This document shows, in pieces, positions 7,376 through 21,845 of a stretch of 32,541 bases of DNA (positions within the stretch are counted from its first letter, which is position 1; each line of letters starts with the position of its first letter). Position numbers and translations under genes: made by a program. The stretch is from a virus. The notes beneath the pieces were generated by a model that saw only the letters and a list, made by a program, of their open reading frames with translations, ran no database searches and was not told the origin of the DNA. The stretch is taken from positions 1-32,541 of IMG/VR virus record IMGVR_UViG_3300032242_001184, one strand, 5' to 3'.

Positions 7376-7383
7376 ACAAATAC

Positions 7384-7458: not shown

Positions 7459-7464
7459 TAAATT

Positions 7465-7540: not shown

Positions 7541-7547
7541 ATAAAAT

Positions 7548-7819: not shown

Positions 7820-7987
7820 TCAGTTTTGCTTAGTCAGTGCAAGCACCTTCTTAGTAGCCTCTTGATAGAGTTTTGCACGTTCAATCTTATTAAGGATCAA
7901 TTGTGCATACTGTTCTTTTGTCAAAACATGATCGCTAAACCAATCACGCTTTTTGTCAGAAGAACCTGATTCTACTGTATTTTTCAT
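7820..7987 (-). CDS. Small hypothetical protein, 55 aa
   Basis: A short, charged, probably helical protein (DWFSDHVLTKEQYAQLILNK then ERAKLYQEATKKVLAL). No family recognised. AAAGGA lies about 14 nt before the ATG, rather far. A promoter-like TTGACA-17-TAGAAT overlaps the start codon (7969-7997), so either this promoter or the ORF start may be wrong. It follows the terminator at 8032-8063 in the direction of transcription. Confidence 0.5.
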   Translation of the reverse strand: MKNTVESGSSDKKRDWFSDHVLTKEQYAQLILNKIERAKLYQEATKKVLALTKQN

Positions 7988-7997
7988 TTACTGTCAA
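7969..7997 (-). promoter_or_regulatory. Promoter-like TTGACA-17-TAGAAT
   Basis: Perfect -35 and spacing, five of six in the -10. It could initiate the hairpin-rich RNA and tRNA array. Confidence 0.45.
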
Positions 7998-8030
7998 ATT
8001 TCCTTTGTTGTTTTTAAGCAACACAAACAA

Positions 8031-8063
8031 AAACCCCTGAGACTTTTTAGTTTCCCAGGGGTT
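8031..8063 (-). terminator. Rho-independent terminator
   Basis: Stem AACCCCTG/CAGGGGTT (8032-8039 with 8056-8063), followed on the minus strand by TTTTTGTTTG. It ends leftward transcription from the accessory cluster before the tRNA region. Confidence 0.85.
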
Positions 8064-8089
8064 CGATAAATGTGTACTATGTGTAGACT

Positions 8090-8224
8090 TTACCTGTCCC
8101 CCGGGCTCCACTCTTGTGAATCATTGCCGCGAATACTTGTAGGATATGATGGTACAAAGGATGCTAAGGCTATTGTGGCCGCTAGCGTCTGATGTTTCGT
8201 CATATTACAAATAAAGTTTGTCAT
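8090..8224 (-). CDS. Possible small protein, 44 aa
   Basis: The ORF begins just after an ACTAAATA late-type octamer (7 nt upstream) and ends before the terminator. It has a hydrophobic patch (TLAATIALASFV) followed by a polar tail, so it could be a secreted or membrane-linked peptide. No homologue recognised and no ribosome site. Confidence 0.4.
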   Translation of the reverse strand: MTNFICNMTKHQTLAATIALASFVPSYPTSIRGNDSQEWSPGDR

Positions 8225-8301
8225 AGTGTTTTATTTAGTCCTGGTTAAAAATTACTGCAAATAAGCACTGTTTTTTGTGCCTTTTCGCAATTCATGTATG
8301 A

Positions 8302-8330
8302 ATTATAGCAGAGAAGTGAATTAGTGTCAA
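8302..8330 (-). promoter_or_regulatory. Consensus sigma70-type promoter
   Basis: TTGACA (8325-8330), 17 nt, TATAAT (8302-8307), right after the stop of the gene at 8339-9028. Confidence 0.85.
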
Positions 8331-8338
8331 CACTTTTT

Positions 8339-9028
8339 TCACAATTTGGGCACATCCACTGTAATTTTTACAGGCGTATGTGACTTCAAGTGCGAGTGTA
8401 TTGTGGTGCTTAGTGTATCATCGCTGTTAAGTGTGAGACCAAAATGCTCATCCCAAAATAAATCATTGTATTCCCATTTAGATAAACTATTACTACGAAT
8501 GTATTCTTCTATGCCCACATATTCGTTATGTAACTTCTCTCGCATTATTGTTGGGTTTTGATAGTAGGTACTATAATTGGGGTATGTGATGCGCTCGAAT
8601 CCACCTGCTATCATCCATGCATTATAGCAGAATTCTTCAGGAGCAGTGACAAATATAAAATCACTTAAAGGAAATTCTTCACGTAACTTGTGTAGATGTA
8701 GACTTAGTACATGGCTTTTGACTAGTTTTTTTCCAGGAGTAGACATGTCCCATACTTTAGCAATATCTTGAAGGATGTTCTCACGTGTTACTCCTTCAGC
8801 TAGGTGCCAATTCTCTCCGAGACCCATTCCAGGACCAAAGTAACAACCTTGATGTGTTATACCCGGGGCAGAGTGTGCGGTCTTGCCTGGTATTGCATGT
8901 TGGTAAAATCTGTCAGGAGTATGGTCAGTGAGGTCAAAGGTTCCAATTGGAGACAGGTGTGTCAATAGGTTACTAAAACCACTCCATCTACTGCCTGGCA
9001 CTCCTATCACAAACGTAATATTTTTCAT
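8339..9028 (-). CDS. Sulfotransferase-like P-loop protein, 229 aa
   Basis: The N-terminus FVIGVPGSRWSGFSNLL (near residues 5-21) resembles the PAPS-binding P-loop strand-turn-helix of sulfotransferases, and VKSHVLSLHLHKLREEFPLSDFIFV (near 104-128) fits the second conserved segment in which the RS/KSH motif and the strand before the 3'-phosphate site lie. It is likely to transfer sulfate from PAPS, but the acceptor is unknown and catalytic residues are not confirmed. The start overlaps the upstream gene by ATGA. It is the last gene of the P450 operon, just before a terminator. Confidence 0.65.
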   Translation of the reverse strand: MKNITFVIGVPGSRWSGFSNLLTHLSPIGTFDLTDHTPDRFYQHAIPGKTAHSAPGITHQGCYFGPGMGLGENWHLAEGVTRENILQDIAKVWDMSTPGKKLVKSHVLSLHLHKLREEFPLSDFIFVTAPEEFCYNAWMIAGGFERITYPNYSTYYQNPTIMREKLHNEYVGIEEYIRSNSLSKWEYNDLFWDEHFGLTLNSDDTLSTTIHSHLKSHTPVKITVDVPKL

Positions 9029-9942
9029 GTAAGTTCCTTTATTTTTGTCATAGCTTTGTTTTTCAATTGTTTCAAATACTCATGAGGAGAATCTAGTATT
9101 TCGTTTTGTTGTTTACTTTTATAGTCATCAAAGAGTTGAACAACATAATTTTGTTCGTTGTCACTTAATGGTATAAGGTTTTGTATTCTATCTAGTAGCA
9201 TTGCAGAGTTATGATCCATGAGATATTTATAGGGCAACAATGTACATTGTTCATTTATAAATTCTGAGAGGTTGTACGGTGTCGGGCTTAAATGTCCATT
9301 ATGTGCAAACACAGGCAGATGTTGGTATTCTCCTAAATGATAAAATTTTAATGTTCGGTCAATAGTAAAGTATGTCATAACATCTTTGTCGTTGATAGCC
9401 TCATCTATCTTTTCTTTAGGTAGAATTGTTGATAGATCCATTCTAATCAACTTATTCCAATAATTGGTTACTTGATGCCATTCTTCTTCTGAGAAGGGTG
9501 TAGACATATCATGGTCTGTTAAGTTTTTAATACAATGCATAAATGTTATTGCTAATTGTTCTTCTTCAGTCTCTGCGGTAATCACTAAGATTTTTGAGTT
9601 TGGAAATAAATTAGTATAATCACTTATGTTGTTATAATCATGTGTCCAAGTAATAGATGTACCAGTAACATTGGACTGTATCATACTCTTATAGTATTGA
9701 AGTCTTTCAACCTCTGAATAAAACTTTCTACGTTCTGATACAAACGTACCCAACGATATATAGTCCCTGCCACTTATCTTTCTATTCACTATGTTGTTAG
9801 AATGAGTGCTACCGGTAGATGCAACATCAAGTTTGTCTAATTTTTTTGATTGTAAGTTGTTCAATAATCCAACAATGAAGTTACCGCTGGCTCCCGGAGC
9901 AAAAACTACAAAAATATGCTCTAAGTCAAATACAGAACTCAT
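9025..9942 (-). CDS. P-loop transferase-like protein, 305 aa (paralogue of 14049-15050)
   Basis: Begins FDLEHIFVVFAPGASGNFI, matching FNLSHIFVVFHPGAAGNFI of the gene at 14049. The G-rich turn after a hydrophobic strand is a Walker A or PAPS-binding-like loop. A later shared segment (TWTHDYNNI, then LFPNSKILVIT) resembles the second conserved region of sulfotransferases, as in other phage transferase-like proteins. Both copies end with a similar helical stretch (SPHEYLKQLKNKA against NPIEYLQVLKQKA). Function is unassigned; sulfotransferase fold is an inference. ATGA overlap with the P450 gene. Confidence 0.62.
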   Translation of the reverse strand: MSSVFDLEHIFVVFAPGASGNFIVGLLNNLQSKKLDKLDVASTGSTHSNNIVNRKISGRDYISLGTFVSERRKFYSEVERLQYYKSMIQSNVTGTSITWTHDYNNISDYTNLFPNSKILVITAETEEEQLAITFMHCIKNLTDHDMSTPFSEEEWHQVTNYWNKLIRMDLSTILPKEKIDEAINDKDVMTYFTIDRTLKFYHLGEYQHLPVFAHNGHLSPTPYNLSEFINEQCTLLPYKYLMDHNSAMLLDRIQNLIPLSDNEQNYVVQLFDDYKSKQQNEILDSPHEYLKQLKNKAMTKIKELT

Positions 9943-11075
9943 ATTGTCTCTATGATAATATTTGATATCATGTCATCATTACCTGATGCAGTCATTACAA
10001 ATTTTAAATCTTCATTGGGTGTTACTATGCGATACATGCCATTATCTAATAGTGCTTCTAAATAAACTGCCATTACTGCTTTGCTTATTGCTAGTGCTAT
10101 ACACGCATGTACTCCATACCCAAATCCAAGATGACTACTAGTATTTCTGTGCAGGTCAAATACTTCTGGATCATTGAAGATATTTGAATCTCTGTTAGCA
10201 GACTCCAAACACAATGCCACTCTATCACCTGATTTCAAATTAACATTATGTAGTGTAATGTCCTTAGTCACTGTTCTTGTAAATCTACCGGTAGATGCAC
10301 GAAATCGCAGTGATTCATTTATAGCTTGAGGTATAAGACTACGATCTTCCATTAACTTAGTTAATTGATTTTCTCTAGCCAAATCTAGTGTTAAAAATTC
10401 TAGTGCTCCGGTTAATGAACTTGCTCCTGAAACACAAGGACCAGTGAACAACGAATTTACTACTGCACCGGTTGGATTGTTATTCATGTATTCATGATAT
10501 ATGCCCGAGCCTGTGGATTCTGTACGCTTTAATGTAGTTAGTTTAAATAATAATTTACTAAATTCAATAGTAGAGGTATTGTCAATATTCTCTGAAACAC
10601 ATTTTGACGAATGCCTCTGCATATCAAATATCAAATCTTTGATATAAGATTTATCACACGGCAGGTTCAGTGTTTCCGCAATTGTCCATGCTGATATTTC
10701 TTCTGTAATTTCTGAAATGTTAAAAGTACCCTTACCAAGCAATCGTTTAGTATGTTCTTTGGCACAATTACTTATGCGTTGTATGTTTTCTTTGCTGTAT
10801 GCGGCAAAGGCAATATTTTTATAGATGGTATGTACAGGGTGATCGCTTGCGCCCAACGACATATTAAATCTATCTTCACTTTCTACAATCAAATTTCCTT
10901 TAGCTGAGGAGAATGTGTTGTGATCTGTTAGTGCAGACTTTACATCATTGTATCTTGTTATCACATGAACGTTGTATTTTTCATTATAACGTGCTGTATT
11001 CTCATTACGTAGTGTTTTATAAATTTCAAATTTATTCAACAACCAATCATTAGAGTGCGGGTTAAAGTAGTCCAT
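9939..11075 (-). CDS. Cytochrome P450-like protein, 378 aa
   Basis: A soluble P450 monooxygenase fold: ExxR in the K-helix (Glu254-x-x-Arg257, NESLRFRA) and the haem loop FGYGVHAC with Cys325 as the proximal ligand, plus an N-terminal P450 profile. At 378 residues it is slightly shorter than bacterial P450s. The I-helix region reads TGPCVSGASSLTGA, where most P450s have AGxxTT with an acid-alcohol pair; the acid and Thr seem to be missing, which may mean unusual chemistry. ATG 11075 is preferred to an in-frame TTG at 11087 because GGAG lies 6 nt ahead of it, and the upstream gene stops at 11077. It needs a redox partner; none is fused, though the rubredoxin gene lies downstream of no evident ferredoxin. 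Very rare in phages. Confidence 0.9.
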   Translation of the reverse strand: MDYFNPHSNDWLLNKFEIYKTLRNENTARYNEKYNVHVITRYNDVKSALTDHNTFSSAKGNLIVESEDRFNMSLGASDHPVHTIYKNIAFAAYSKENIQRISNCAKEHTKRLLGKGTFNISEITEEISAWTIAETLNLPCDKSYIKDLIFDMQRHSSKCVSENIDNTSTIEFSKLLFKLTTLKRTESTGSGIYHEYMNNNPTGAVVNSLFTGPCVSGASSLTGALEFLTLDLARENQLTKLMEDRSLIPQAINESLRFRASTGRFTRTVTKDITLHNVNLKSGDRVALCLESANRDSNIFNDPEVFDLHRNTSSHLGFGYGVHACIALAISKAVMAVYLEALLDNGMYRIVTPNEDLKFVMTASGNDDMISNIIIETI

Positions 11076-11076
11076 G

Positions 11077-11391
11077 TTATTCTCCAACGCAAATAGTTTC
11101 TGTAATTATATTGTTTTCTAAATTATACACATGGTTATTTATAAAATTTTGCACTATGCATGGTGTTTTATCAAATGCCATCAACAAAAAATCATCTGAC
11201 GTATTGAATTCCATAGTGACAGTTAGGGTAAGCATGTCTTTGGATAACTCATTTGATTGACTTAGTATCAATCCAGTATCAATATATGTTGTCTTCATCA
11301 CTAATTTAAATTCATCTGTCAAAGGATTAACGTCCCTGTAAAAGGGTATCTCTATGTTTGGTCTTGTGAATTTTTTAATTAGCTTAAACAT
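11077..11391 (-). CDS. ~100-residue family protein, copy 3
   Basis: 104 aa, starts MFKLIKKFTRPNIEIPFYRD, aligning with the copy at 3034-3345. Middle strands L-T-L-T-V-T and a T-S-D-D-F-L segment follow the family layout. Function unknown. The consensus promoter at 11397-11425 puts its start point at or next to the ATG, so this transcript is probably leaderless. It heads the operon with the P450 and two P-loop proteins. Together with the two copies next to cupins, this suggests the small protein serves as an accessory or partner of oxygenases. Confidence 0.7.
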   Translation of the reverse strand: MFKLIKKFTRPNIEIPFYRDVNPLTDEFKLVMKTTYIDTGLILSQSNELSKDMLTLTVTMEFNTSDDFLLMAFDKTPCIVQNFINNHVYNLENNIITETICVGE

Positions 11392-11396
11392 TGTTG

Positions 11397-11425
11397 ATTA
11401 TATATCAAAAACAAACAATTGTCAA
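11397..11425 (-). promoter_or_regulatory. Consensus sigma70-type promoter of the P450 operon
   Basis: TTGACA (11420-11425), 17 nt, TATAAT (11397-11402), then 5 nt and the ATG at 11391. The transcription start should fall on or beside the ATG. Confidence 0.85.
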
Positions 11426-11454
11426 CAATTTATGAGCCGGTCATACCCAAACTG

Positions 11455-11904
11455 CTAAACAATACTTTCATAAATTGATACAGCCAATCTAACTGAATCA
11501 ATATTAGTAACTTGATGCGGTGTGCTAGAGTCGTGCCAATACCAAGTTCTTATCGAATATTGCACACTATCTAATAAATTTCCGGCGTCATCGTACCAAC
11601 TGGTTCTTGCATTATTAGGTAATAGCAAGTAATTGTGTGTTGAATTTCTAATTTTGTCAACATGTTTATTACCCTGAGTGATTCCATAATACTGTTGCAT
11701 AATAATTTTGCTAGTGGGTTGTATGGGTAGGGTAGCATATGCCCAATACTTAAAAGAGGTAGTAGTGTCAAACTGATTATATCCAGCTTTTGAATTGGGG
11801 TTGGCACCCTTCCAAATAGTAGTAGCACTATTGGCAAATGTAATCAATTCAGCTTCTAATTCTTCTGGTATTGCCGGCCAATCAAGTTTAATGTAATGTT
11901 TCAT
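11455..11904 (-). CDS. Putative Fe(II)/2-oxoglutarate-type oxygenase, 149 aa
   Basis: A compact protein with HVD (His81, Asp83), a distal His near 130 (STPHQVTNID) and Arg near 139 (VRLAVSI), the iron site and 2-oxoglutarate-binding arrangement of asparaginyl-beta-hydroxylase-like oxygenases. In length it is close to the minimal fold. It overlaps the upstream PP-loop gene by 17 nt, so they are coupled. The oxygenase may modify a product of the PP-loop enzyme or a protein. Activity not proven; the three motifs are the evidence. Confidence 0.65.
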   Translation of the reverse strand: MKHYIKLDWPAIPEELEAELITFANSATTIWKGANPNSKAGYNQFDTTTSFKYWAYATLPIQPTSKIIMQQYYGITQGNKHVDKIRNSTHNYLLLPNNARTSWYDDAGNLLDSVQYSIRTWYWHDSSTPHQVTNIDSVRLAVSIYESIV

Positions 11905-13114
11905 AATCCAAGAATTGTTTGTAAGAGCCTATCTTAAATTTCATTGAATGAATTGCAAATCCAGTACGATCTGTAGTCAGATATATAGGATTTATTTTAC
12001 TATAAAACGCTTTAAAATCGCTTTCTAATAATTGCATTGCCATAGAATCAGAGTGCAATTTATATAACCAACCATGTTGTAATCCCATAAATCCACCACT
12101 AGACTTGTCACATTGAAAAGTACTATGGTCATATGTTGTCGGGTATAGTATAGGGTTCATTGCTCTAAAAAATTTACTTTTTGGACTAGTTGGTTGATTT
12201 TTAATAATGTCAACTTTTGGTAGTCCAAATTGGTTAGTTTCTGTTATTACTTTTTTCGTAGGATATATACTAAGTTCTTTTAACAAATTAGATATCCATA
12301 AATTTTCTTTTTTATGTATATATTTTGAAACCATATGACATTGCTTAACTATAAGCTCTGGCAGGTCAGGAGCATAGTAAAAAAGCACTCTGTCTACATT
12401 AGGATAAGGTGTCTTAAATGGGGGTCTACCTACATTAACAGATCGGTCGTGTATAGATACTATTATATCCCCTCCCTCAATATAACGCAATGACGGTTTG
12501 TCTACGCCCCATACAACACCAATACGTTTACCTTGCTCAGCCATATCAACCAAATGCTTGAATTTGTCTAAGCTTCCTTTAGTGGCACTAACAGGGCTGA
12601 TCCAATCACCGCTTTGATATATCCATTCATCTGTTTTGTAATTAATAATGTCTTCAAAGTAATCATTGATTGTTATTTTAACATTAGGATGCTTAACTGC
12701 AATTTCATTTAATAACGGAAACAATGCATATTTTGTTTCACTAATAGTATTAGTAACTGATGTATCTGTATTACTCCACTCCCAGTTTTTTAATCCAGAT
12801 TCCGGAATCATTGATACAACTTCATCTACGTGAATGCCGTTATTTAAAAAACTGCAAACTGCATTGGTGCTATCTGCACCTCCACTACATAAAACAATAA
12901 CGTAATCATATGTGTCTCGTATTTGTTGTGCTCTTAATTTATATAAAGTATCAATAGACAATTCCGGTTCAACCAACCAGTTGGCTTTTTCAAACTTTTC
13001 TTTATAAAAATACCAGTCAATCTTTGCAGAAGTTTTTTGTGCTTCTAGTATTGCATGTATCTTGTCAGTAAACACCTGTCCATTTACTGTGTAATAACCC
13101 AAATCGTAGTTCAT
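11888..13114 (-). CDS. PP-loop (SGGxDS) ATP pyrophosphatase-like protein, 408 aa
   Basis: PP-loop SGGADS at residues 77-82, in a hydrophobic strand VIVLC. The N-terminal stretch (VNGQVFTDKIHAILEAQKTS then WYF) matches the paralogue at 16016-17209 (VNGTPIKNKLQALLEASKTT then WTF), and both have the same spacing up to the PP-loop. Probably forms an adenylate and then an amide or thio-bond, as in asparagine-synthase-like or tRNA-thiolation enzymes, but no glutaminase domain is present, so an ammonia or other nucleophile must come from elsewhere. The substrate is not known. Adjacent genes (a Bug-type protein and an oxygenase) share its operon. Confidence 0.8.
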   Translation of the reverse strand: MNYDLGYYTVNGQVFTDKIHAILEAQKTSAKIDWYFYKEKFEKANWLVEPELSIDTLYKLRAQQIRDTYDYVIVLCSGGADSTNAVCSFLNNGIHVDEVVSMIPESGLKNWEWSNTDTSVTNTISETKYALFPLLNEIAVKHPNVKITINDYFEDIINYKTDEWIYQSGDWISPVSATKGSLDKFKHLVDMAEQGKRIGVVWGVDKPSLRYIEGGDIIVSIHDRSVNVGRPPFKTPYPNVDRVLFYYAPDLPELIVKQCHMVSKYIHKKENLWISNLLKELSIYPTKKVITETNQFGLPKVDIIKNQPTSPKSKFFRAMNPILYPTTYDHSTFQCDKSSGGFMGLQHGWLYKLHSDSMAMQLLESDFKAFYSKINPIYLTTDRTGFAIHSMKFKIGSYKQFLDYETLH

Positions 13115-14041
13115 TTATTCTTGTTTTACTTTTTTAATTATAGGGGCCCACATATCATATTCTTTTTTAACATATTTTTTAAAATCCACAGAAGTCATTG
13201 TTACTGGTGTGGCACCCAATGTTAAAAATTTGTCTGTTGATTTTTTTACTGAATCATTGATAACACTATTAAATTCACTAATGTAACTCGGGTCTGTACC
13301 TATAGGTGCAAATAGACCAAACCAAGTAGTTATTACTAAATTAACTTTAGATTCTTGTAATGTAGGCACATTGGGTAAAATAGCAAACCGATTTTTAGAA
13401 GTTACTGCAATCGCTCTAAGTTTTTTTGAATTAATATGCTGTATTACTCCGGGAATGGTAGCAAACATCCATTGAGTATTACCTGATATTAAATCTACTA
13501 CAGCTTCTGAACCCTTATAAGGAATATGAGTAGACATAATGCCTGTATGTTGTGCAAATAACAAAGAAGCCATGTGTGCTGTAGAACCTATACCAGTACT
13601 ACCATGATTTACTTTTTTAGGAAACTGTTTACTATACGCTAATAAATCATCTATAGTATAAATATCGGACGATGCAGGGACTACTAAAACTAATGGAACT
13701 TGTGCCATGATTGCAATAGGTTCTAAATCTAATAGAGGTTCAAAATTCATTTCATACAATACAGGATTAGATACAAAAAGACTTCCTCCTGTCACCAATA
13801 TTGTATTTCCGTCTGGTTTACTTTTTACTACTTTTTCTGCACCTAAATTTCCACCTGCTCCGGTTTTAAATTCAACCATAATTCGCTGTGACCATTTAAT
13901 ATCTAAATTTGCAATAACTTCTCTAGCTAGTAAGTCAGTTGTGCCACCGGGAGAATGAGTAACTACAAACGTGATTGGTTTAGATGGTTGGGCATGTATA
14001 TTTATTGCCCATAACAATAAAAACGCTAATATATGTTTCAT
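13115..14041 (-). CDS. Bug/TctC-family periplasmic binding protein, 308 aa
   Basis: A hydrophobic signal peptide (residues about 1-17, then HAQPSKP) precedes a tripartite-tricarboxylate-transporter receptor fold: SPGGTTDLLAREV, GAGGNLGAE, VTGGSLFVSNP, HGSTGIGSTAH, IPYKGSEAVVDLISG and the FGLFAP turn are all family-typical. Such proteins bind carboxylates in the periplasm and normally work with the TctA/TctB membrane proteins, absent in this window. The family is vastly expanded in Burkholderiales, so a betaproteobacterial donor or host is likely. Its role in phage infection is unclear: capture of a carboxylate substrate or priming of the host's uptake are options. A late-type octamer AGTAAATA ends 4 nt before the ATG. 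Confidence 0.92.
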   Translation of the reverse strand: MKHILAFLLLWAINIHAQPSKPITFVVTHSPGGTTDLLAREVIANLDIKWSQRIMVEFKTGAGGNLGAEKVVKSKPDGNTILVTGGSLFVSNPVLYEMNFEPLLDLEPIAIMAQVPLVLVVPASSDIYTIDDLLAYSKQFPKKVNHGSTGIGSTAHMASLLFAQHTGIMSTHIPYKGSEAVVDLISGNTQWMFATIPGVIQHINSKKLRAIAVTSKNRFAILPNVPTLQESKVNLVITTWFGLFAPIGTDPSYISEFNSVINDSVKKSTDKFLTLGATPVTMTSVDFKKYVKKEYDMWAPIIKKVKQE

Positions 14042-14045
14042 CTAG

Positions 14046-14053
14046 TATTTACT
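14046..14053 (-). promoter_or_regulatory. Late promoter octamer (AGTAAATA), predicted leaderless start
   Basis: Overlaps the TAA stop of the upstream gene and lies 4 nt before ATG 14041. Confidence 0.45.
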
Positions 14054-15050
14054 TAGACTTGATATGTTCCGAAAATAATATAGCTTTTTGTTTTAATACT
14101 TGCAAATATTCAATTGGATTTTCCAATAATTCTTTTGGTTGACTATTCACATACTTATGTAATTTTTCGACAATATTTTTCTTTTGCTCTACTGACAATT
14201 CACCTATTAAATCATTCATTACATTAATCAATATATCTGTATCATTATTCATAATTACTCGGTATGGCAAAATCACACAGTTATCATCTATACATTCATT
14301 ATAAGGTTTTACTGTGATAAGTAGTTTGTCCGAATTTATCAAAGAACCGGAATATGATACATAATTAACCTTATCATCACATGGCTGGTTATCTATTGCC
14401 GGGAGCAAGTCATATCTATCTAACATTCTAAAAACTGATGCATATGTTAAGATATCTTTATATTCAGCATTGAACCTATCATTTAACATTGTGTTAATAA
14501 ATGATAAATGTTCATTTCCTACCATAGAACATAACATAGAACGGCAACTGTCAGTCCAAGTATTTAAAAACCAATTACGTACCTCATCAGGAATTACCGA
14601 TACTAAATCTTCAACCAGTATATTCTTCATTTGCTGTAATGATGTTATTACTAATTTTTCAGTAATTGATTCCTGAGTAATTACTAAAATTTTACAATTT
14701 GGGAATAATGTTCTATAAAGAGGAATGTTTGTAAAATCATGTGTCCAAGTCACAACAGGCTTAGTAATGGTTTCGTTTAAAGATAATAGTTTATCTTTAT
14801 AGAATTCTACCCGTCTATCAAACGTATGTGGTTTTATATTAGCCTGTTGTATATAGAATATACCACAAGAAAAATATTCAATTGCATCTTTTATTTCTTT
14901 AGAATTTAAATGACAGCTACCACTAGATGATATTGATAACTCTACATTATCTTGAAGCATCAAACTTCTAATAAGTGTAGAAATAAAATTACCTGCAGCT
15001 CCGGGATGAAATACTACAAAAATATGTGATAAATTGAATACATCAGTCAC
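14049..15050 (-). CDS. P-loop transferase-like protein, 333 aa (paralogue of 9025-9942)
   Basis: GTG start directly after the preceding TAA; it gives a product that aligns from residue 2 with the paralogue. Shared landmarks are IFVVFHPGAAGNFI near residues 10-23, the VVTWTHDFTN and LFPNCKILVIT segments, and a C-terminal helical tail. No enzyme class can be named with confidence; a sulfotransferase-like fold is suspected. It follows a cupin and a ~100-residue protein in the operon, while its paralogue follows the P450, so both copies travel with oxidative enzymes. Confidence 0.6.
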   Translation of the reverse strand: MTDVFNLSHIFVVFHPGAAGNFISTLIRSLMLQDNVELSISSSGSCHLNSKEIKDAIEYFSCGIFYIQQANIKPHTFDRRVEFYKDKLLSLNETITKPVVTWTHDFTNIPLYRTLFPNCKILVITQESITEKLVITSLQQMKNILVEDLVSVIPDEVRNWFLNTWTDSCRSMLCSMVGNEHLSFINTMLNDRFNAEYKDILTYASVFRMLDRYDLLPAIDNQPCDDKVNYVSYSGSLINSDKLLITVKPYNECIDDNCVILPYRVIMNNDTDILINVMNDLIGELSVEQKKNIVEKLHKYVNSQPKELLENPIEYLQVLKQKAILFSEHIKSK

Positions 15051-15356
15051 TTATATAGTATTCCGAGTGCTAGATACTGTTGTAATATTATGTTCAGTAT
15101 TGTATGCTTCACGTTTTTGTTTATTGGCTATACAAATAGGATCTGTTTCTGTTTCTTTTTCAAAGGCTTCATCTTCCCAAATTGAGGTATGTGTTAAGGT
15201 AAGCTGATCTTCTGACAATGTTCTAGCTATTGCTGTATTTTTACCTGTAGCTTTGTATGTTTCTTTCCAATGTTTAATAAATTCCAGATCGTTTATACCA
15301 TCATAAAATTCTACATCTAATGACGGGCGTGTGTAAATTGTTTCTTTAATTAACAT
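15051..15356 (-). CDS. ~100-residue family protein, copy 4
   Basis: 101 aa, closest to the copy at 2120-2428 (TRPSLDVEFYDG against IRPTTDVEFFSV; SEDQLTLTHTSIWEDEAF against SSDKLTQTIVHAWDSEESF; KREAYNTEHNIT against KREEYNNAHGIT). A good AGGAG ribosome site precedes the ATG, with an octamer GCTAAATA further upstream (15375-15382). It follows a cupin gene as the copy at 2120 does, so a cupin plus this protein forms a repeated two-gene cassette. Function unknown. Confidence 0.72.
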   Translation of the reverse strand: MLIKETIYTRPSLDVEFYDGINDLEFIKHWKETYKATGKNTAIARTLSEDQLTLTHTSIWEDEAFEKETETDPICIANKQKREAYNTEHNITTVSSTRNTI

Positions 15357-15374
15357 ATATTTCTCCTATTATAG

Positions 15375-15382
15375 TATTTAGC
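15375..15382 (-). promoter_or_regulatory. T4-type late promoter octamer (GCTAAATA)
   Basis: About 19 nt upstream of ATG 15356, with AGGAG in between. Confidence 0.45.
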
Positions 15383-15405
15383 TTTTTAATGTATTGCAAC
15401 TGCGG

Positions 15406-15996
15406 TCATTTGTTAAAAATTTTAGTAATATCAGCTTGACCCGGTTCAACCAATGCTTCAGGATAATATTTGTTTATTAATGAGTCATGTATACTACCTG
15501 CTGTGGGGCCCTTCCATTGTACAGCCGCAGAAGTCATATTAGTATCTCCTAACCATTTTTCAAAACTATACAATACAAAGCCAGTACCTAATGGTGGATT
15601 GGTACCACCGTGGTATTCACCCGGCGATAATCCTAGTGTTTTCCCGCACCATTTACTGGTACCGTATAAACTCTCTTTCCCTGATACAATTCCACCGCCT
15701 GCAAGCACTGTAATAATTTCTACGCCTGGATGACAGTGTTTAGGAATAGTTCTACCTGGGTGTATCATATACATTTCTACTAAATAACGATCATGTTTAA
15801 ATACACATATTGCAGTTGCATCATCTGTACGTATTACCCTAGCATTCCATGGTACAAGAATTGGTTTGCCTGCTTCCATATACCACTTAACAAAATCTTC
15901 TAACGTGTCCCATGTTTCAGGAATATTTAAATTAGGATACTGTACATCAATAGGCCATATCATTTCTCCGTCTTCTTCATTTTTTTCAACTAACAT
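15406..15996 (-). CDS. Cupin-domain protein, 196 aa (copy 2)
   Basis: Metal-binding cupin core KHCHPGVEI with GEYHGG, equivalent to the triad of copy 1. WDTLEDFVKWYMEAGKPILV and the C-terminal MTSAAVQWKGPTAGSIHDSL match the other copy in order. The metal site is complete, so it may be an oxygenase or isomerase. AAAGGACC lies 5-8 nt before the ATG. Genes on both sides belong to the same leftward operon. The N-terminal 10 residues (KNEEDGEM) differ from copy 1. Confidence 0.8.
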   Translation of the reverse strand: MLVEKNEEDGEMIWPIDVQYPNLNIPETWDTLEDFVKWYMEAGKPILVPWNARVIRTDDATAICVFKHDRYLVEMYMIHPGRTIPKHCHPGVEIITVLAGGGIVSGKESLYGTSKWCGKTLGLSPGEYHGGTNPPLGTGFVLYSFEKWLGDTNMTSAAVQWKGPTAGSIHDSLINKYYPEALVEPGQADITKIFNK

Positions 15997-16015
15997 TAAT
16001 AGGTCCTTTACATAT

Positions 16016-17209
16016 TCACATATTTATCAGGTTATCCGTTGAATTACACAAATAGTGCCATTTTGTCTGACAATACTTTAATGTATCTCTATTACGCATA
16101 AATCGTGAATCTATTTGATTTAGATAACTTTTCCAATGGTATGACCATGCTTGTTGTACTCTATCAAAATCAGGTACGTGTGTAAGTATATTGTCCCAAG
16201 CTCTTGTCCCCATTTTAAATCCGTCAAGTACTGCAAAAGGTTTGTCTGCTTGAAATCTATTAAAGTCCCAATAAGGGTAACAAACTAATTTTGAAATTTC
16301 ACTAACTATTGAATATTCAAAATAATGTTTTTCGTAGTTCATATGCACAAAAGTAGGATCTATTAGTGCCCTCTCTGATGGTGATTGAACCAAATACATA
16401 TTTTTTTTATTAATCTCAAAGTAGTTTTTCATTGCTAGAGCTTGGGCTATTGCAATATCTGGAAAGTTTGGACTCCAATAAAAATATTCAGTGCCATGTG
16501 GATTATCAGGATTGGGTTGTGCCATACATGCAGTATCGACAAAATAAAAGAACCATTGATTTTTCTGTTTGACTACACATGGTTTATCTACACCAAATAT
16601 ACTTGCTACTTTCTTACCTTGTAAAGCGAGCGTTCCTTCTATAGTACTGAATGTATTTTGTTTTTGTGCTCTAGCAATACTAGGTAAATTACTAACGTCA
16701 TTTGCAAATATATCATCTTTATAAAATTGTTCTTTAACTGTAGTAGTCCAATCATTTATTTCAATTTTAATTTCAGGATGATTTTTAGCTAACCACTCCA
16801 AATCTTTTTTTATCACTAAATCCCATTCTGAATGAAAGTTTGCATTTGTTCTATCTATGGCATTAGGAGTATATATTCCTTTGTCCATTAATTTCTCAGG
16901 CCATTGAATATAAATATGATCTAATTTAATTCCGTACTCTAGGAAAGTCATCAAGATATTATGACTATCGCTACCACCGCTATAATTTAAAATCAAATAA
17001 TCGTATGAGTCTCTTAATTGTTGTGCCCTATCCCTGTATAACTCCTTCAATGAAATTTCATGCTTGTTAAATTTTTTTGTTGCTGACTCAAAAATTTCAT
17101 CAAAAAATGTCCATTGTACTTTAGCGGTTGTTTTGCTTGCTTCAAGAAGTGCTTGTAATTTGTTTTTGATAGGAGTTCCATTAACAATGTAATTACCATT
17201 TAAACTCAT
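16016..17209 (-). CDS. PP-loop (SGGxDS) ATP pyrophosphatase-like protein, 397 aa
   Basis: SGGSDS at residues 77-82 after a hydrophobic strand, plus the whole N-terminal region matching the gene at 11888-13114. C-terminally both contain a VDKP segment (FGVDKPCVVK against WGVDKPSLRY) that probably helps bind the substrate. No glutaminase or tRNA-binding domain is visible. The start overlaps the upstream sulfotransferase gene by ATGA. With the gene at 11888 it represents the longer of the two PP-loop subfamilies in the window. Confidence 0.8.
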   Translation of the reverse strand: MSLNGNYIVNGTPIKNKLQALLEASKTTAKVQWTFFDEIFESATKKFNKHEISLKELYRDRAQQLRDSYDYLILNYSGGSDSHNILMTFLEYGIKLDHIYIQWPEKLMDKGIYTPNAIDRTNANFHSEWDLVIKKDLEWLAKNHPEIKIEINDWTTTVKEQFYKDDIFANDVSNLPSIARAQKQNTFSTIEGTLALQGKKVASIFGVDKPCVVKQKNQWFFYFVDTACMAQPNPDNPHGTEYFYWSPNFPDIAIAQALAMKNYFEINKKNMYLVQSPSERALIDPTFVHMNYEKHYFEYSIVSEISKLVCYPYWDFNRFQADKPFAVLDGFKMGTRAWDNILTHVPDFDRVQQAWSYHWKSYLNQIDSRFMRNRDTLKYCQTKWHYLCNSTDNLINM

Positions 17210-17853
17210 ATACCGTTATCCTTTAACCAAAAATTTACCTCTTCAATGTTAACTATTTCTACTTTTGATTTGGCATCTTGTACTGTGTATTTTGAACTAG
17301 GATTCCAAATAGTTGAAGGAGGCATTTGAATCAAGTCTTCATATTTGATTTCAATAGGACTAAATTGTTTTCTAACCTCATCCATTCTGTTTCTGCAAAC
17401 ATCCATAATTTGAATTGTGTCATCAAATGACTGCCGAGATACAGTGATACTTTTTGTGTTTACTGTGTTGTGCAACTCTAATGTGTTAAGTGCAATCAAC
17501 AAACTCCAAAAAGTATCTATGTTGTTCTTGCGTTCTAATAATACATATTGCAAATCTTTACTCTCAAAAAATTTACAGATTTGGTCAGTAAACAAGTGTA
17601 AGTGAACCTTAACGGATATCGCATTATGCTGTTTTTGAAATTTGTCAAACAATTCAAACCTATAGTCTAAATCATTTGCCGGCTCAGGTAAATAACTGTA
17701 TCGTATTCCATTATTGATATCAACACTCTTTATGTGGCAATACATTGTGAATAATTCAACTAAATTAAGTTGCGGTAAACTGTCTTGTATCCAAGTGCTA
17801 CCGCTTCTAGGATGACTGAATATAACTACTGATTTGTTTGGGTCAAGTTCCAT
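17206..17853 (-). CDS. Sulfotransferase-like protein, 215 aa
   Basis: The clearest of the four: VVIFSHPRSGSTWIQDSL near residues 9-26 is the canonical PAPS 5'-phosphosulfate loop of sulfotransferases. A later YVLLERKNNIDTFWSLLIAL segment (near 100-120) corresponds to the 3'-phosphate binding region, in which R and S contact PAPS. The short length fits a soluble cytoplasmic enzyme. The acceptor is unknown; the neighbouring oxygenases could make the hydroxyl it sulfates. It overlaps the upstream oxygenase gene by 28 nt. Confidence 0.8.
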   Translation of the reverse strand: MELDPNKSVVIFSHPRSGSTWIQDSLPQLNLVELFTMYCHIKSVDINNGIRYSYLPEPANDLDYRFELFDKFQKQHNAISVKVHLHLFTDQICKFFESKDLQYVLLERKNNIDTFWSLLIALNTLELHNTVNTKSITVSRQSFDDTIQIMDVCRNRMDEVRKQFSPIEIKYEDLIQMPPSTIWNPSSKYTVQDAKSKVEIVNIEEVNFWLKDNGI

Positions 17854-18410
17854 GGGTCTGATGAGAATCTAAAGCTTACAGATATGCGAATATTATCCGT
17901 GCTATTGTATATAGCATGAGGAACAGTGTTGTTCATAATAACCGGGGTATTCAAAATATATCTATCAATTTCTTTTAGTGTTGATTTGGCATAGAATATA
18001 TAAGAACCTTCAGAAGGATCGGGCAATGGTACATAGTCTTTTGGTCCACTTATATATTCATAGAATATTACCGGTGTTTCTGTGCAATTTTGTATGCCAA
18101 AATTCATACTGAGACAGCCCTTACTATCACCGTGTGTTATCGGTGGCTCTACATTTTTGTCTACATGTGCATCTTTTTCCCCCGCACCGGGATGAACCAC
18201 AATATAACATACATTTGTTAGTTTGTTTAATACATTCAGTTCAGTTAAATATTGAACTGTATCTGGGCAATTTGCAAAAAATTTCAACAAATCTACTGTC
18301 CAAAGACCTGTTGGTTTGCCCTCACAGTATGGCAAAATGAATTTTGTTAATTCTTCTTGTATTACATTTATGTTAGGTGTGTTTAAATATCTATAAGTAA
18401 ATAGGTTCAT
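17826..18410 (-). CDS. Putative Fe(II)/2-oxoglutarate-type oxygenase, 194 aa
   Basis: HVD (His82, Asp84 in DAHVDKN) and PHAIYN (His165) form the iron facial triad, with Arg175 or 177 in IRISVSF available for 2-oxoglutarate. GAGEKDAHVD recalls the aspartyl/asparaginyl beta-hydroxylase family. Overlaps the upstream oxygenase by ATGA and the downstream sulfotransferase by 28 nt, so three genes form a tight unit. Substrate not known. Confidence 0.68.
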   Translation of the reverse strand: MNLFTYRYLNTPNINVIQEELTKFILPYCEGKPTGLWTVDLLKFFANCPDTVQYLTELNVLNKLTNVCYIVVHPGAGEKDAHVDKNVEPPITHGDSKGCLSMNFGIQNCTETPVIFYEYISGPKDYVPLPDPSEGSYIFYAKSTLKEIDRYILNTPVIMNNTVPHAIYNSTDNIRISVSFRFSSDPWNLTQTNQ

Positions 18411-19123
18411 TTTTGTATAAGATGATCTATGTCTTTGGTTCCATTTACAGAAATCATAAAGGTATATCTATCATGCTTGCTCATATTCAGTACAGCATGT
18501 TTGTATCCTGTATTTAAAAAATATGCTTTACCCGGGACAAATGTAGTAGCTTCAACATTGTTCTTAACCCAAAATAAATTTACACACTCAGGGTCAGCAA
18601 TGACAGGTATGATGATTCTAACTGCATAGCTAGGATCATAATCTATATGCGGGGTGATATTACTACCTGCTTCTAATTTTACCAAACGAATTCTAGTGGT
18701 TTTTCCCTTGAACTTATTAGTAATTCTGTCAAACACATGTGCATATCTTTTATAAATTTCAGTCTTTACTGTGTATGTTGATTCATTCATCACGCTAGAT
18801 GCATCTAATCCTAAGGATTGTTTTCTTTTGTGATTAGACAAAATACCGGAATCGTGCAGACTTTCATGCACAACTTCACATTCGTCTAATGTGATAGATT
18901 TATTTTCTACGGTGCTATCTGTTAATCCAATTTGAAAAAAGTTATCATATACAGATTTTGAGAGTTCATGATGAATCCCACACAGACCTTTGTTAACTTC
19001 TAATACTGATTTGAATTCAGTATTCAACTCATTCACGCAGTTGACTAGCTCTCTAAGCAAGTCATCTTCCAAACACAGATGCTCAACTACACAATGTGGC
19101 GGTAGTCTATGTTTCAGTTTCAT
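18407..19123 (-). CDS. Aspartyl/asparaginyl beta-hydroxylase-like oxygenase, 238 aa
   Basis: ATG 19123 was chosen since it overlaps the desaturase stop by ATGA; an upstream in-frame start would extend into the desaturase. His159-x-Asp161 (TPHIDYDPSYAVRIIIPV), distal His209 (GYKHAVLN) and Arg219 (DRYTFMIS) are all present, as is the jelly-roll segment between them. This is the best supported 2-oxoglutarate oxygenase in the window. Such enzymes hydroxylate side chains or free amino acids. The neighbours (desaturase, oxygenase, sulfotransferase) suggest a series of modifications on one scaffold, though that is inference. Confidence 0.8.
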   Translation of the reverse strand: MKLKHRLPPHCVVEHLCLEDDLLRELVNCVNELNTEFKSVLEVNKGLCGIHHELSKSVYDNFFQIGLTDSTVENKSITLDECEVVHESLHDSGILSNHKRKQSLGLDASSVMNESTYTVKTEIYKRYAHVFDRITNKFKGKTTRIRLVKLEAGSNITPHIDYDPSYAVRIIIPVIADPECVNLFWVKNNVEATTFVPGKAYFLNTGYKHAVLNMSKHDRYTFMISVNGTKDIDHLIQK

Positions 19124-19824
19124 TTTACACTCATTAATTTGTGTAAATGTCCGCCCCAATCAGCCCAATGTCTGAATGAAGGGTTAGCAGGTTCTTCGTG
19201 GTGATTCTTGTGCCAGCCTTCACCACCGCTAAAGTAGCCAAGAATAGATACATTAACAGGACCTTTGTCATCATGACAAAATATATTGATTAGGCTACCA
19301 CTGAACCACATCAAAAATGCAGGTACAATCAACAACGCCCAATAGTAAGTAAAAGATAAAAACAATATACCTAGTACATGTAATATCAATAATACTTTGA
19401 AATAGTATTTGTGTTGAAATAGATACCAAGGTTTACGCAACAAATCAGGGACGTATCTTATTATATCTTCTGCACCACTAGAGTACCAATATGTTTTCAA
19501 TCTACTATGGTGTTTTGGACTGTGTGGGTCTTTTTCTGTGTCACTATAACGATGATGTTTTCTATGAGTTCCGGCCCATGCTAGTGCAGATCCTGACATT
19601 CCAATCCAAGATAACAATATCAAAATCTTTTCTACTAATGGATTAATTGATTGTTTGTGAGATACTGCTCTATGAAAAAAGGCAGTACCGCATATTCCTA
19701 CATAAACTATCTGCGATATGATAACTGCAGGTATTGAGATTGTTAAGGGTAGGAAGAACAAGCCCAGTACAAACAGTATGTGGGCGTAAATCTGTATCAT
19801 TAGTAATTTTTGTCTTGGGTTCAT
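19120..19824 (-). CDS. Membrane fatty-acyl desaturase, 234 aa
   Basis: Three histidine boxes: HRAVSH (51-56), HRKHH (87-91) and HKNHH (215-219), the di-iron centre of delta-9-type acyl-CoA or acyl-lipid desaturases. Hydrophobic stretches near 10-45, 63-85 and 142-178 fit two membrane hairpins. It would introduce a double bond into host membrane lipid or a lipid substrate. It is short for the family (usually 260-300) but all boxes are kept. It heads the oxygenase operon with a late-type octamer 5 nt before the ATG. Reducing power (cytochrome b5, ferredoxin or rubredoxin) must be supplied. Confidence 0.92.
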   Translation of the reverse strand: MNPRQKLLMIQIYAHILFVLGLFFLPLTISIPAVIISQIVYVGICGTAFFHRAVSHKQSINPLVEKILILLSWIGMSGSALAWAGTHRKHHRYSDTEKDPHSPKHHSRLKTYWYSSGAEDIIRYVPDLLRKPWYLFQHKYYFKVLLILHVLGILFLSFTYYWALLIVPAFLMWFSGSLINIFCHDDKGPVNVSILGYFSGGEGWHKNHHEEPANPSFRHWADWGGHLHKLMSVK

Positions 19825-19829
19825 CTAAG

Positions 19830-19837
19830 TATTTATG
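19830..19837 (-). promoter_or_regulatory. Late promoter octamer (CATAAATA), predicted leaderless start
   Basis: Followed by 5 nt and ATG 19824. It probably starts the long cluster transcript. Confidence 0.55.
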
Positions 19838-19840
19838 CCA

Positions 19841-20371
19841 CTATAAATTCAAAGTTAATAACCATTGTTCTACTCCATTAAACAATATTGGTTTAGATGA
19901 TGCAACAAATTTGTAGTCAGGAAAAGCCTTTGGCAATAGATATTTTATGTTAACTTGAAATAGTTGATAATTGTAGTCATTGAATGACAATATTAATTTA
20001 GAACATCCATTTAGTTTTGCACGTTCAATTTGATAAGTAGTGCAGTACTTATGATTGTAGGGTTTTACCCCGAGTCCCTTATGTCTTGGATCAGAATATG
20101 AAAAAACACGAAATCCTGCTTGATATACTTTTTCATTGTTGAATTCTCTAACTATACCACCTGCACCTGTCCAAAACTTGTCATTGACATATAATAATTG
20201 ATATGTGTCTATTGCATCATCTCGTATTAAACTCAGTAAACTCCATGGATATAAGTATCCATAATTTTCAGGTAATTCATTACCAAATCTAAGATTTAAT
20301 GCTTGTTTTAATTTGTCAGTAAACTCACCTTTGTTCTCATCAGTGAGTATTAGCATTTCTATTTTATCCAT
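19841..20371 (-). CDS. GNAT-like acyltransferase candidate, 176 aa
   Basis: The layout fits a GNAT fold: a central beta-strand pair (YQLLYVNDKFWTGAGGIVREF, QAGFRVFSYSD), then PRHKGLGVKPYN in place of the usual Q/RxxGxG/A acyl-CoA loop, and a following helix (TTYQIERAKLNGC) and strand (KLILSFND). The match is loose, so an acetyltransferase role is a possibility only. It overlaps the upstream PP-loop gene by 13 nt; an alternative start, ATG 20356, would remove the overlap. Confidence 0.45.
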   Translation of the reverse strand: MDKIEMLILTDENKGEFTDKLKQALNLRFGNELPENYGYLYPWSLLSLIRDDAIDTYQLLYVNDKFWTGAGGIVREFNNEKVYQAGFRVFSYSDPRHKGLGVKPYNHKYCTTYQIERAKLNGCSKLILSFNDYNYQLFQVNIKYLLPKAFPDYKFVASSKPILFNGVEQWLLTLNL

Positions 20372-21225
20372 GATAATTTTTCTACTAAAGCATGGTATGC
20401 ATGATTACTTGAACCCCACCATTTATCTTTCCAACTATTGACTAATTGAATGTCAGGGTGATTAAAAATAGGACTTTGTTCTACAATTTCGTATCCGTGT
20501 TTTTTAACACGTTGCTCTAATACAAATTTATTTTGATTGTTATATACATGAACTTTACTAGAATAAGATCCTGTTTTGCCGGGTATCTGATTGTTTGATA
20601 GTTGTTGCATTGTTGGATCAGTTAAAAACGCAAGATACTGTTCTGCGGTGTAACTGAGAAAGAACGGTGTACCATGGATATTGTTTTGCTCATAGAAATT
20701 GAATTGTGTATATAGCGGTTCTAGTTCATCCACATACCATTCATTACCATTTACTAAAAACAAATGAGGATCAGAATCCCCTGTTATTACTGTACCGTCT
20801 ATCTGTTTAGCAAGCCATAGATTACTAGGCATTTGAAATGCGGCTATTTTGTATTCTGTTGCTATTTTTAAAAATTCACCTGACTCCACAAACTTATCAT
20901 AATCTAAATCAATTATAATTGGAGTAATGCTGTTTTCATCACAATACTTAAATGCATATCGTGTTTCATGTTGATTATATTGTGTACGCATAATCACAGG
21001 TGTAATTGGCATACCCAACGTTCTGAAAACTGCTAGTACATATTCACTGTCAAGTCCACCACTATAGCATAAGTGAATATTACCTTGCTTTTCAGCCCAA
21101 ACTTTTTCAGCTACTAACTTAGTTTCTTCGTAATAGGACTTGACAGGTCGATTTACCGGTTTGATATCTACACTCCAAGTTGGTCCGTTACCAGACCAAC
21201 TCAGATAACCATCCTGTAGATTCAT
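20359..21225 (-). CDS. PP-loop (SGGxDS) ATP pyrophosphatase-like protein, 288 aa
   Basis: SGGLDS at residues 55-60 (LCYSGGLDSEYVLAVF). It is the paralogue of the plus-strand gene at 3373-4317: both have SGGxDSEYVL/EVVL, then GxPI-x-PVIxR and a GDSDPH or GEGDP loop. I used ATG 21225 since the frame upstream opens with TTG. No partner domain is visible. The gene follows the rubredoxin gene by 6 nt and is coupled to the GNAT-like gene. Confidence 0.8.
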   Translation of the reverse strand: MNLQDGYLSWSGNGPTWSVDIKPVNRPVKSYYEETKLVAEKVWAEKQGNIHLCYSGGLDSEYVLAVFRTLGMPITPVIMRTQYNQHETRYAFKYCDENSITPIIIDLDYDKFVESGEFLKIATEYKIAAFQMPSNLWLAKQIDGTVITGDSDPHLFLVNGNEWYVDELEPLYTQFNFYEQNNIHGTPFFLSYTAEQYLAFLTDPTMQQLSNNQIPGKTGSYSSKVHVYNNQNKFVLEQRVKKHGYEIVEQSPIFNHPDIQLVNSWKDKWWGSSNHAYHALVEKLSWIK

Positions 21226-21231
21226 CAATAT

Positions 21232-21360
21232 TTAAATTGTTTCGTAGTCAGCTTTGAAGCCACCACACTCTGGGCAAGGAAAGTCCTCTGGTAAATCTTC
21301 CCACTTACCTTCTGTTTCTTCGTCATGTACATGACCGCAAATTACACAAACGTGATCCAT
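21232..21360 (-). CDS. Rubredoxin-like protein, 42 aa
   Basis: Cys5-x-x-Cys8-Gly and Cys29-x-x-Cys32-Gly form the iron knuckles of rubredoxin (VCVICG, PCPECG), with the spacing of the rubredoxin tail of rubrerythrin. It is shorter than free-standing rubredoxins (about 52). It starts in a TAATG overlap with the rubrerythrin stop, so the two halves of a normally fused rubrerythrin are separate but coupled here. It could donate electrons to the di-iron site of the neighbour, or to the oxygenases. Confidence 0.85.
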   Translation of the reverse strand: MDHVCVICGHVHDEETEGKWEDLPEDFPCPECGGFKADYETI

Positions 21361-21827
21361 TATCGTACCTCCACTTGATTTAATTCATCTAACTTAGCTT
21401 GATATGCTTCTGCGTGACGTTGTTCTACTTTTGCAAGTGCGGCAAAACGCTTTTCAGCTTTGGCCAATACAGCCTTGAATTCTTCCGCATGTTCCTTTGA
21501 CTCATTGATTTGATTTTGTGCTTCATTGGCAGCTTTCAAGTTACCTTCAAATTCAGCAACTTCTTTGAAGTGAGGATACATTTCTGTAAATTCATATGTT
21601 TCACCTTCAATCGCTAGCTCCAAACACTTGCGTGTGTCTGGCTTACCAATAATCAATTCTAAGTGACCCCATGAGTGTAGTAACTCTTGGTCTGCTGTAT
21701 GCTCAAAGTGCTTTGCAATTTCCTCAAAGCCTTCTTCACGTGCAATTTTTGCAAAGTATCGATACTTAGTGTGTGCCTGGCTTTCTCCGGAATATGCTGT
21801 ATGTAAACTGTTAATTGTTTCTGACAT
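21360..21827 (-). CDS. Rubrerythrin (di-iron domain only), 155 aa
   Basis: Four-helix di-iron (erythrin) protein with ExxH motifs: SGESQAHTKYRYF, ADQELLHSWGH, EGETYEFTEMYPHFKEVAE and VEQRHAEAY. Rubrerythrins reduce hydrogen peroxide. Only the erythrin part is present; the rubredoxin part is the next gene (21232-21360). Rubrerythrin is usual in anaerobes and microaerophiles but also found elsewhere. In a phage it may protect RNR or iron enzymes from peroxide. AAAGGAAA ribosome site and a GATAAATA octamer (21847-21854) lie upstream. Confidence 0.9.
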   Translation of the reverse strand: MSETINSLHTAYSGESQAHTKYRYFAKIAREEGFEEIAKHFEHTADQELLHSWGHLELIIGKPDTRKCLELAIEGETYEFTEMYPHFKEVAEFEGNLKAANEAQNQINESKEHAEEFKAVLAKAEKRFAALAKVEQRHAEAYQAKLDELNQVEVR

Positions 21828-21845
21828 GTTTTTCCTTTAAAATGT

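Follow-up and report, generated by a model that had tools for sequence, protein, structure and literature searches.

What does a phage do with a dense row of oxidative, synthetase-like and P-loop enzymes? The question is raised by the entire 32,541-bp IMG/VR virus sequence IMGVR_UViG_3300032242_001184 (hereafter the window), probably a piece of a larger phage genome, in which 17 tightly packed minus-strand genes with short overlaps fill positions 8339-21228. This block encodes a cytochrome P450, a desaturase, three oxygenases with an HxD..H motif, a cupin, three PP-loop enzymes, a GNAT-like protein, two proteins of ~100 residues, four P-loop proteins and a TctC-type substrate-binding protein (SBP). 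An original prediction had taken the block not for scattered genes but for one joint metabolic cluster, making perhaps a modified lipid, a sulfated metabolite or a surface modification. All 17 genes that it named or implied exist on the minus strand, and on the whole the prediction was correct and even fell short of what is there: the evidence supports a cluster but not the products guessed for it, and the feature that best indicates function, TctC (13115-14041), had been overlooked. We propose, with a confidence somewhat short of even, that the block belongs to a virus-specific metabolic island serving the import and conversion of a small carboxylate. The island falls under phage auxiliary metabolism, but its central synthetase family is virus-specific and undescribed. 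Auxiliary genes of phages usually patch a single host step; here a multi-enzyme set is tied to an exported nutrient-binding protein, and if this is confirmed, phages would steer the uptake and conversion of a specific compound during infection.

Recurrence and linkage in environmental phages

Two of the PP-loop proteins, PPLa and PPLb, belong to one family, which we call the hub. A search with the hub alignment found the family encoded in at least 557 IMG/VR stretches, from which 78 loci were fetched (relative phage loci and contigs are labelled by L-numbers below). The same family gave three matches in 11.3 million bacterial and archaeal contigs, all of them metagenome-assembled, and zero match by tblastn against 50,697 deposited phages. 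Judged from these searches, the hub is a virus-specific, synthetase-like family nearly absent from bacterial genomes. It flags hundreds of viral contigs with unannotated chemistry, a question that is directly testable by expressing a few proteins. Against the same deposited phages, megablast of the block and tblastn of ST3, s100a, the P450 and the cupin (named as in Table 1) returned nothing, and tblastn of the window TctC returned just two weak matches to faecal phages. No description of this island was found in open-licence papers on TctC or biosynthetic clusters in phages, which is not proof of absence.

Within 76 non-redundant relative loci, the hub was present in 69, TctC in 50, the ~100-residue (s100) family in 41, the PPLc/PPLd family in 38 and the desaturase in 32, while ST2/3-type proteins (10), cupins (8) and P450s (7) were rarer; these counts are conditional on the bait, most loci having been fetched with the hub or s100. 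The association also holds in the reverse direction, with TctC as the seed, where 17 of 25 loci had a hub gene within the 4-kb flanks. Twenty-five contigs of 75-357 kb carry 33 TctC genes altogether (in 23 of the contigs), 19 of which lie no more than 1 kb from a hub gene; 20,000 random placements gave a mean of 1.4 and never more than 7. The same test placed 7 of 19 s100 genes near the hub versus 0.7 expected, and 12 of 32 desaturases within 5 kb of it versus 2.7. Because random placement ignores the shared ancestry of the contigs, these figures are evidence of clustering but do not count independent events. Adjacent hub/TctC pairs on the same strand number 39, and 30 of them overlap.

Conservation extends to gene order. 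L029, L095, L054 and L079 share all or most of the row PPLc-GNAT-desaturase-ox18-ox17-ST4 at 52-89% protein identity, with PPLc orthologues (60-89% identical) in the same position in each of these four. PPLb is followed by the cupin, s100, P450 and ST2/3 genes in varying subsets in L024, L027, L029, L032 and L035, where the PPLb orthologues are 59-80% identical and the ratio of nonsynonymous to synonymous divergence (dN/dS) is near 0.1. Overall, dN was far under dS in all but a few comparisons, with dS near saturation in many, as expected of purifying selection. Because the same gene order is found in other phage contigs with dN well under dS, the block is not a product of chance. Scores of other environmental phages carry the island, which is strongly conserved. 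The joint-cluster claim, which its authors would have given up had the genes never co-occurred elsewhere, has thus survived: many phage contigs carry them together, in sub-orders that are conserved and beside the hub.

Predicted fold of the hub family

The AlphaFold2 (AF2) model of PPLa, built with 72 sequences in the alignment, has a mean predicted local confidence (pLDDT) of 93.1. When this model was compared by VIA-align with the chains ranked by Foldseek, the best match was AsnB (1ct9_B; Z 10.8, 280 residues aligned over model residues 2-388, root-mean-square deviation (rmsd) 4.9), followed by beta-lactam synthetase (Z 9.4) and by TsnB9 and carbapenam synthetase (8.4). The top 12 rows are all amide-forming synthetases of the AsnB superfamily, and a second tier made of NAD synthetase, LarE and GMP synthetase follows at Z near 7. 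The hub fold is therefore predicted to be of the asparagine synthetase B/beta-lactam synthetase type. In a library of viral structures, the close matches to PPLa are exclusively 'uncharacterized protein' entries of uncultured Caudovirales phages. By sequence profile the hub gave nothing beyond chance against the PDB.

The original prediction counted three PP-loop ATPases in the block, and the SGGxDS loop is present in all three; across 72 hub members S77, G79 and D81 are invariant, and G78 and S82 nearly so. The N-terminal part of the synthetases is where the hub departs from them. An Ntn glutaminase domain occupies the N-terminus of AsnB and persists as an inactive remnant in beta-lactam synthetase. 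Residues 2-388 of PPLa align to AsnB from residue 121 on, and hub proteins are ~400 residues long, so they lack most of the glutaminase domain. The hub thus shares with AsnB and the beta-lactam and carbapenam synthetases a predicted fold over nearly its whole length and the SGGxDS loop, but differs from them in having no glutaminase domain, no profile match and a virus-specific distribution.

The periplasmic binding protein and proposed carboxylate uptake

TctC is recognised without difficulty, scoring 199 bits against a curated cut-off of 27 (Pfam TctC 1.3e-58). By a simple heuristic, signal-peptide-like N-termini are predicted for 53 of 53 viral TctCs, including that of the window, versus 2 of 103 hub proteins. 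In profile match and predicted signal peptide it resembles the TctC (Bug) SBPs of the tripartite tricarboxylate transporter (TTT); it is unlike them in being phage-borne, paired with a synthetase-like enzyme and usually without the TctA permease.

The window TctC adjoins PPLa directly, though it is of bacterial type: in a tree with small bacterial sampling it clusters with 11 bacterial TctCs (support 98/98) and not with the 52 other viral ones. This grouping suggests that the position beside the hub was filled in the window by a separate recruitment of TctC, of which one independent event is visible.

How complete can the putative uptake machinery of such a phage be? In the 343-kb jumbo-phage contig L142 (6433-12925), a porin (Porin_4, 6e-37), TctA, an SBP-like gene, the hub, an oxygenase-like gene, an SDR-like gene and a second oxygenase-like gene follow one another; the SBP-like and hub genes overlap by 4 bp, and the labels SBP-like, oxygenase-like and SDR-like were assigned by eye. 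An outer-membrane channel, a permease, a binding protein and a synthetase are here in line, and a phage porin together with a TTT permease is unusual. The second contig with TctA, L143 (159 kb; 4129-17743), has around the permease, as judged by eye, a carbamoyltransferase, an AMP-binding enzyme, methyltransferases, an amidohydrolase and ST1-like P-loop proteins. The plasmid-borne relatives of the L142 porin are all from Burkholderiales and the nearest relative of the window TctC is from Cupriavidus (44%), which hints at a betaproteobacterial host, not proven.

Barrel, oxidative and putative tailoring proteins

The s100 proteins are predicted to adopt the ~100-residue beta-alpha-beta-beta-alpha-(alpha)-beta fold of dimeric alpha+beta barrels. 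The AF2 model of s100a (pLDDT 96.5) matches the ActVA-Orf6 monooxygenase at Z 9.8 (92 residues aligned, rmsd 2.1). Like the ABM-type barrels ActVA-Orf6, SnoaB and IsdG, s100 has this fold over its whole length, with Z up to 9.8; unlike them it has its own family signature and no profile match (the ABM profile found none of 46 s100 members, with weak DUF3291 and DUF4286 matches only, and PDB sequence profiles gave nothing beyond chance). In the relatives L019/L020/L021 and L024 the s100 domain is fused to a cupin, direct evidence that these two act together.

The originally predicted P450 and desaturase both hold up by Pfam profile (Table 1). The P450 has the heme-ligand Cys and the ExxR motif, and its nearest named subfamilies, at scores far under their cut-offs, are natural-product P450s. 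The acid/alcohol pair of the I-helix is missing in all eight viral P450s aligned, SGASSL or similar standing in its place; because it is uniformly missing, we suspect either non-standard oxygen activation or a role other than monooxygenation. The desaturase matches the acyl-CoA desaturase 4ymk in the PDB at 2e-4 and the DesA family at 2.4e-13, under its cut-off. For the three HxD..H oxygenases of the original prediction, a profile identifies ox18, and ox17 and ox11 are recognised by sequence motif; the cupin is matched weakly, under its cut-off.

Least of the original assignments survives for the four sulfotransferase-like proteins. ST4 comes near the threshold of Sulfotransfer_1 (21.2 bits versus a curated cut-off of 22), whereas ST1, ST2 and ST3 have no sulfotransferase profile support in Pfam or PHROG, ST2/ST3 found no match in PDB sequence-profile searches, and hhalign, using shallow alignments, found no relation among ST1, ST2/3 and ST4. 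Sulfation would fall to ST4 with its weak match, and nothing else speaks for the sulfated metabolite suggested originally.

Other genes recur near the hub in relatives: an ATP-grasp gene (GARS_A 1.5e-24) that adjoins it in several loci, two radical-SAM families, a Rieske protein, amidohydrolase-like and GNAT-like genes and, by eye, look-alikes of a pyridoxal-phosphate aminotransferase and of a DctP SBP. Tailoring or ligation activities mostly make up these recurring neighbours.

Proposed mechanism and alternative explanations

Let us assume that the conserved association of these genes reflects a shared pathway. TctC would be exported to the periplasm, bind a carboxylate and hand it over to a TctA/TctB permease of the host or, rarely, of the phage. 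The PP-loop of PPLa/PPLb would then adenylate the carboxylate, and an amine, either free ammonia or an amine partner, would attack to form an amide, the acyl or amine part of which might be tailored by the ABM-like barrels, cupins, desaturase, HxD..H oxygenases, P450, GNAT-like protein and ST4. In this scheme we infer the cooperation of TctC with the hub, catalysis and amide formation by the hub, the order of steps, the substrate and the product. A bolder version, which we regard as doubtful, is a virus-dedicated small-molecule pathway with its own uptake, in which phages of many lineages would, while infecting, make an amide-type metabolite with glutaminase-less AsnB-fold synthetases; a signal or a cyclic amide is conceivable. 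If true, such a virus-made amide metabolite would be a previously undescribed class of viral natural product.

Several observations weigh against the import and conversion of a carboxylate by the island. The TctA permease was not recognised among the open reading frames of the window and is encoded in just 2 of 25 related contigs; therefore the SBP would have to rely on a host permease. Gene content around the hub is highly variable, and several hub loci have no nearby TctC. As for the fold, the best Foldseek E-value for PPLa in the PDB is only 1.3e-3, the Asn_synthase profile PF00733 found nothing at E<=1 in the window and nothing at 0.1 in 72 hub members, and hhalign of the hub alignment with E. 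coli AsnB recovers the SGGxDS loop only. Kinship of the hub with AsnB beyond this loop is thus unconfirmed by sequence comparison.

Two alternatives are serious rivals, each of them improbable by our estimate, about on a par with one another and just behind the amide-metabolite version. The island might take up and degrade an environmental organic acid or conjugate, feeding carbon or nitrogen to the infected cell with no dedicated product. Such salvage would account for the TctC-type SBPs, DctP-like TRAP SBPs and amidohydrolase-like proteins that recur near the hub and for the phage with both a porin and a TctA permease, and the ATP-dependent step of the hub could activate a carboxylate for catabolism. 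However, ATP-spending AsnB-fold synthetases, GNATs, a hub-adjacent ATP-grasp ligase, a P450 and ABM-like barrels typify building and tailoring, not bulk degradation, and a complete catabolic route was not found. Alternatively, a plastic zone by the tRNA array might gather unrelated auxiliary genes that share no pathway. Gene content does differ between phages, paralogues are scattered on either side of the array in the window, and tRNA genes lie in the fetched flanks of 37 of the 76 relative loci, so the island tends to adjoin tRNA arrays. What a mere hot spot does not explain is the maintenance of pairs and sub-orders over large divergence (hub-TctC; PPLc-GNAT-desaturase-ox18-ox17-ST4; PPLb-cupin-s100-P450/ST2), the s100-cupin fusion in relatives, or the occupation of the TctC slot beside the hub by a bacterial-type TctC in the window.

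Two further possibilities are less likely. PP-loop enzymes and oxygenases acting on the tRNAs of the array or on phage DNA bases would be in keeping with the adjoining array and with the nucleic-acid-modifying role of PP-loop enzymes such as QueC, which PPLd matches at 5e-6, but the hub model matches AsnB-type enzymes better than other PP-loop enzymes, the tightest-linked partner of the hub is an SBP predicted to be exported, and a thymidylate-synthase-family gene occurs in just 3 of 25 contigs; we consider this quite improbable. A search for HMUDK, of base hypermodification, gave no match in anything searched and weighs neither way. Marginally less probable again is the lipid or surface product of the original prediction, with host lipids or envelope sugars altered by the desaturase, oxygenases and sulfotransferases; we found no specific evidence for it. 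The desaturase is real and linked to the hub and ST4 is sulfotransferase-like; against this, ST1-ST3 have no such profile support, the block has no recognisable lipid-specific acyltransferase or glycosyltransferase, and the carboxylate SBP would be left unexplained. We retain carboxylate import and conversion as our working model.

Comparison with known systems

Beta-lactam and clavam pathways combine an AsnB-fold synthetase with 2-oxoglutarate (2OG)-type oxygenases. The island has the same pair, with the synthetase fold predicted, but no sequence homology to the pathway enzymes was found. Contigs of SUP05 phages have been described with tctA and a 2OG-Fe(II) oxygenase as auxiliary metabolic genes (PMC4164917); both cases share a TTT component and a 2OG oxygenase carried by viral contigs, while of the TTT only TctA is presented there, by domain match, and a synthetase hub is not described. 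The Mycobacterium phage Adler, as cited in PMC9405906, carries a P450 in its genome with no redox partner nearby, as is the case here; unlike that cited example, the P450s of this study recur in several phage contigs within one gene set and have no I-helix pair.

Gene content and surroundings of the island

The 4-bp ATGA overlaps of the block lie at 9025-9028, 9939-9942, 17206-17209 and 18407-18410, and the remaining overlaps measure 11-40 bp. The block as originally delimited is real; paralogues of its cupin, ~100-residue and PP-loop proteins are found at 2120-4317, past most of the tRNA array, and therefore the island exceeds those coordinates. The annotated start of PPLd may be placed too far upstream, because its reading frame overlaps s100d.

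Table 1. Features of the island and the adjoining tRNA array (aa, amino acids).
Feature	Position	Strand	Basis and relatives
tRNA array, 24 genes with two HNH endonuclease genes inside	7-7540
s100c, third ABM-like barrel, outside the reported block	2120-2428	-	39% identical to s100a
cupB, second cupin, outside the reported block	2459-3037	-	42% identical to cupA
s100d, fourth ABM-like barrel, outside the reported block	3034-3360	-	s100 family
PPLd, PP-loop protein of PPLc type, QueC-like profile	3241-4317	+	Pfam QueC 5.1e-6; PHROG 1550 1.6e-5
ox6k, further oxygenase-like protein within the tRNA array	6209-6778	+	HxD..H in sequence; 26 of 76 relative loci have homologues
ST1, P-loop protein, PGSRWSG	8339-9028	-	Homologues in L047, L049, L143
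ST2, P-loop protein, ST3 paralogue	9025-9942	-	47% homologue in L024 downstream of PPLb-cupin-s100
Cytochrome P450	9939-11087	-	Pfam P450 1.2e-19; PDB 8fbc_A 1e-40
s100b, second ABM-like barrel protein	11077-11391	-	Same family as s100a
ox11, small HxD..H oxygenase-like	11455-11904	-	Motif in sequence; in L035 a homologue (53% identical) lies between two hub genes
PPLa, hub family, synthetase-like PP-loop protein, 408 aa, predicted AsnB fold, no glutaminase domain	11888-13114	-	AF2 model, VIA-align
TctC, periplasmic carboxylate-binding protein, predicted signal peptide	13115-14041	-	Pfam TctC 1.3e-58
ST3, P-loop protein without assigned fold	14049-15050	-	36% to paralogue ST2
s100a, predicted ABM-like dimeric alpha+beta barrel, 101 aa	15051-15356	-	AF2 model and structure match
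cupA, cupin	15406-15996	-	Cupin_2 2.8e-4, under cut-off; 42% identical to paralogue cupB
PPLb, hub family, predicted AsnB-fold synthetase-like PP-loop protein, 397 aa	16016-17209	-	Same family as PPLa
ST4, sulfotransferase-like, HPRSGSTW P-loop	17206-17853	-	Sulfotransfer_1 2.1e-4; orthologues in L029, L095
ox17, HxD..H oxygenase-like	17826-18410	-	Motif in sequence; orthologues 52-79% identical adjoining ox18
ox18, Asp/Asn beta-hydroxylase-type 2OG-Fe(II) oxygenase	18407-19159	-	Pfam Asp_Arg_Hydrox 2.1e-6
Membrane fatty-acid-desaturase-type protein	19120-19824	-	Pfam FA_desaturase 2.5e-10
GNAT-like protein, 176 aa	19841-20371	-	Same-position orthologues (56-71%) in L029, L054, L079, L095; zero Pfam match
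PPLc, PP-loop protein, 289 aa, SGGLDS	20359-21228	-	26% identical to paralogue PPLd

Several genes mark the window clearly as phage DNA: those for a class I ribonucleotide reductase pair, SleB of endolysin type, a PAAR protein and HNH endonucleases, and the 24 tRNA genes. Among deposited phages, those nearest in the large reductase subunit are Xanthomonas and Stenotrophomonas phages of 159-200 kb. Profiles of defence systems gave zero matches. Genes for a rubrerythrin-like protein and an IscU/NifU-like Fe-S scaffold (21360-22534) adjoin the island, and both lie beside it in some relatives. The 1120-aa protein at 24194-27556, with zero PHROG match, has homologues in four relative loci, often adjoining SleB. 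A PAAR-motif protein (27553-27831) and a glutaredoxin-like protein (28140-28370) neighbour the reductase genes.

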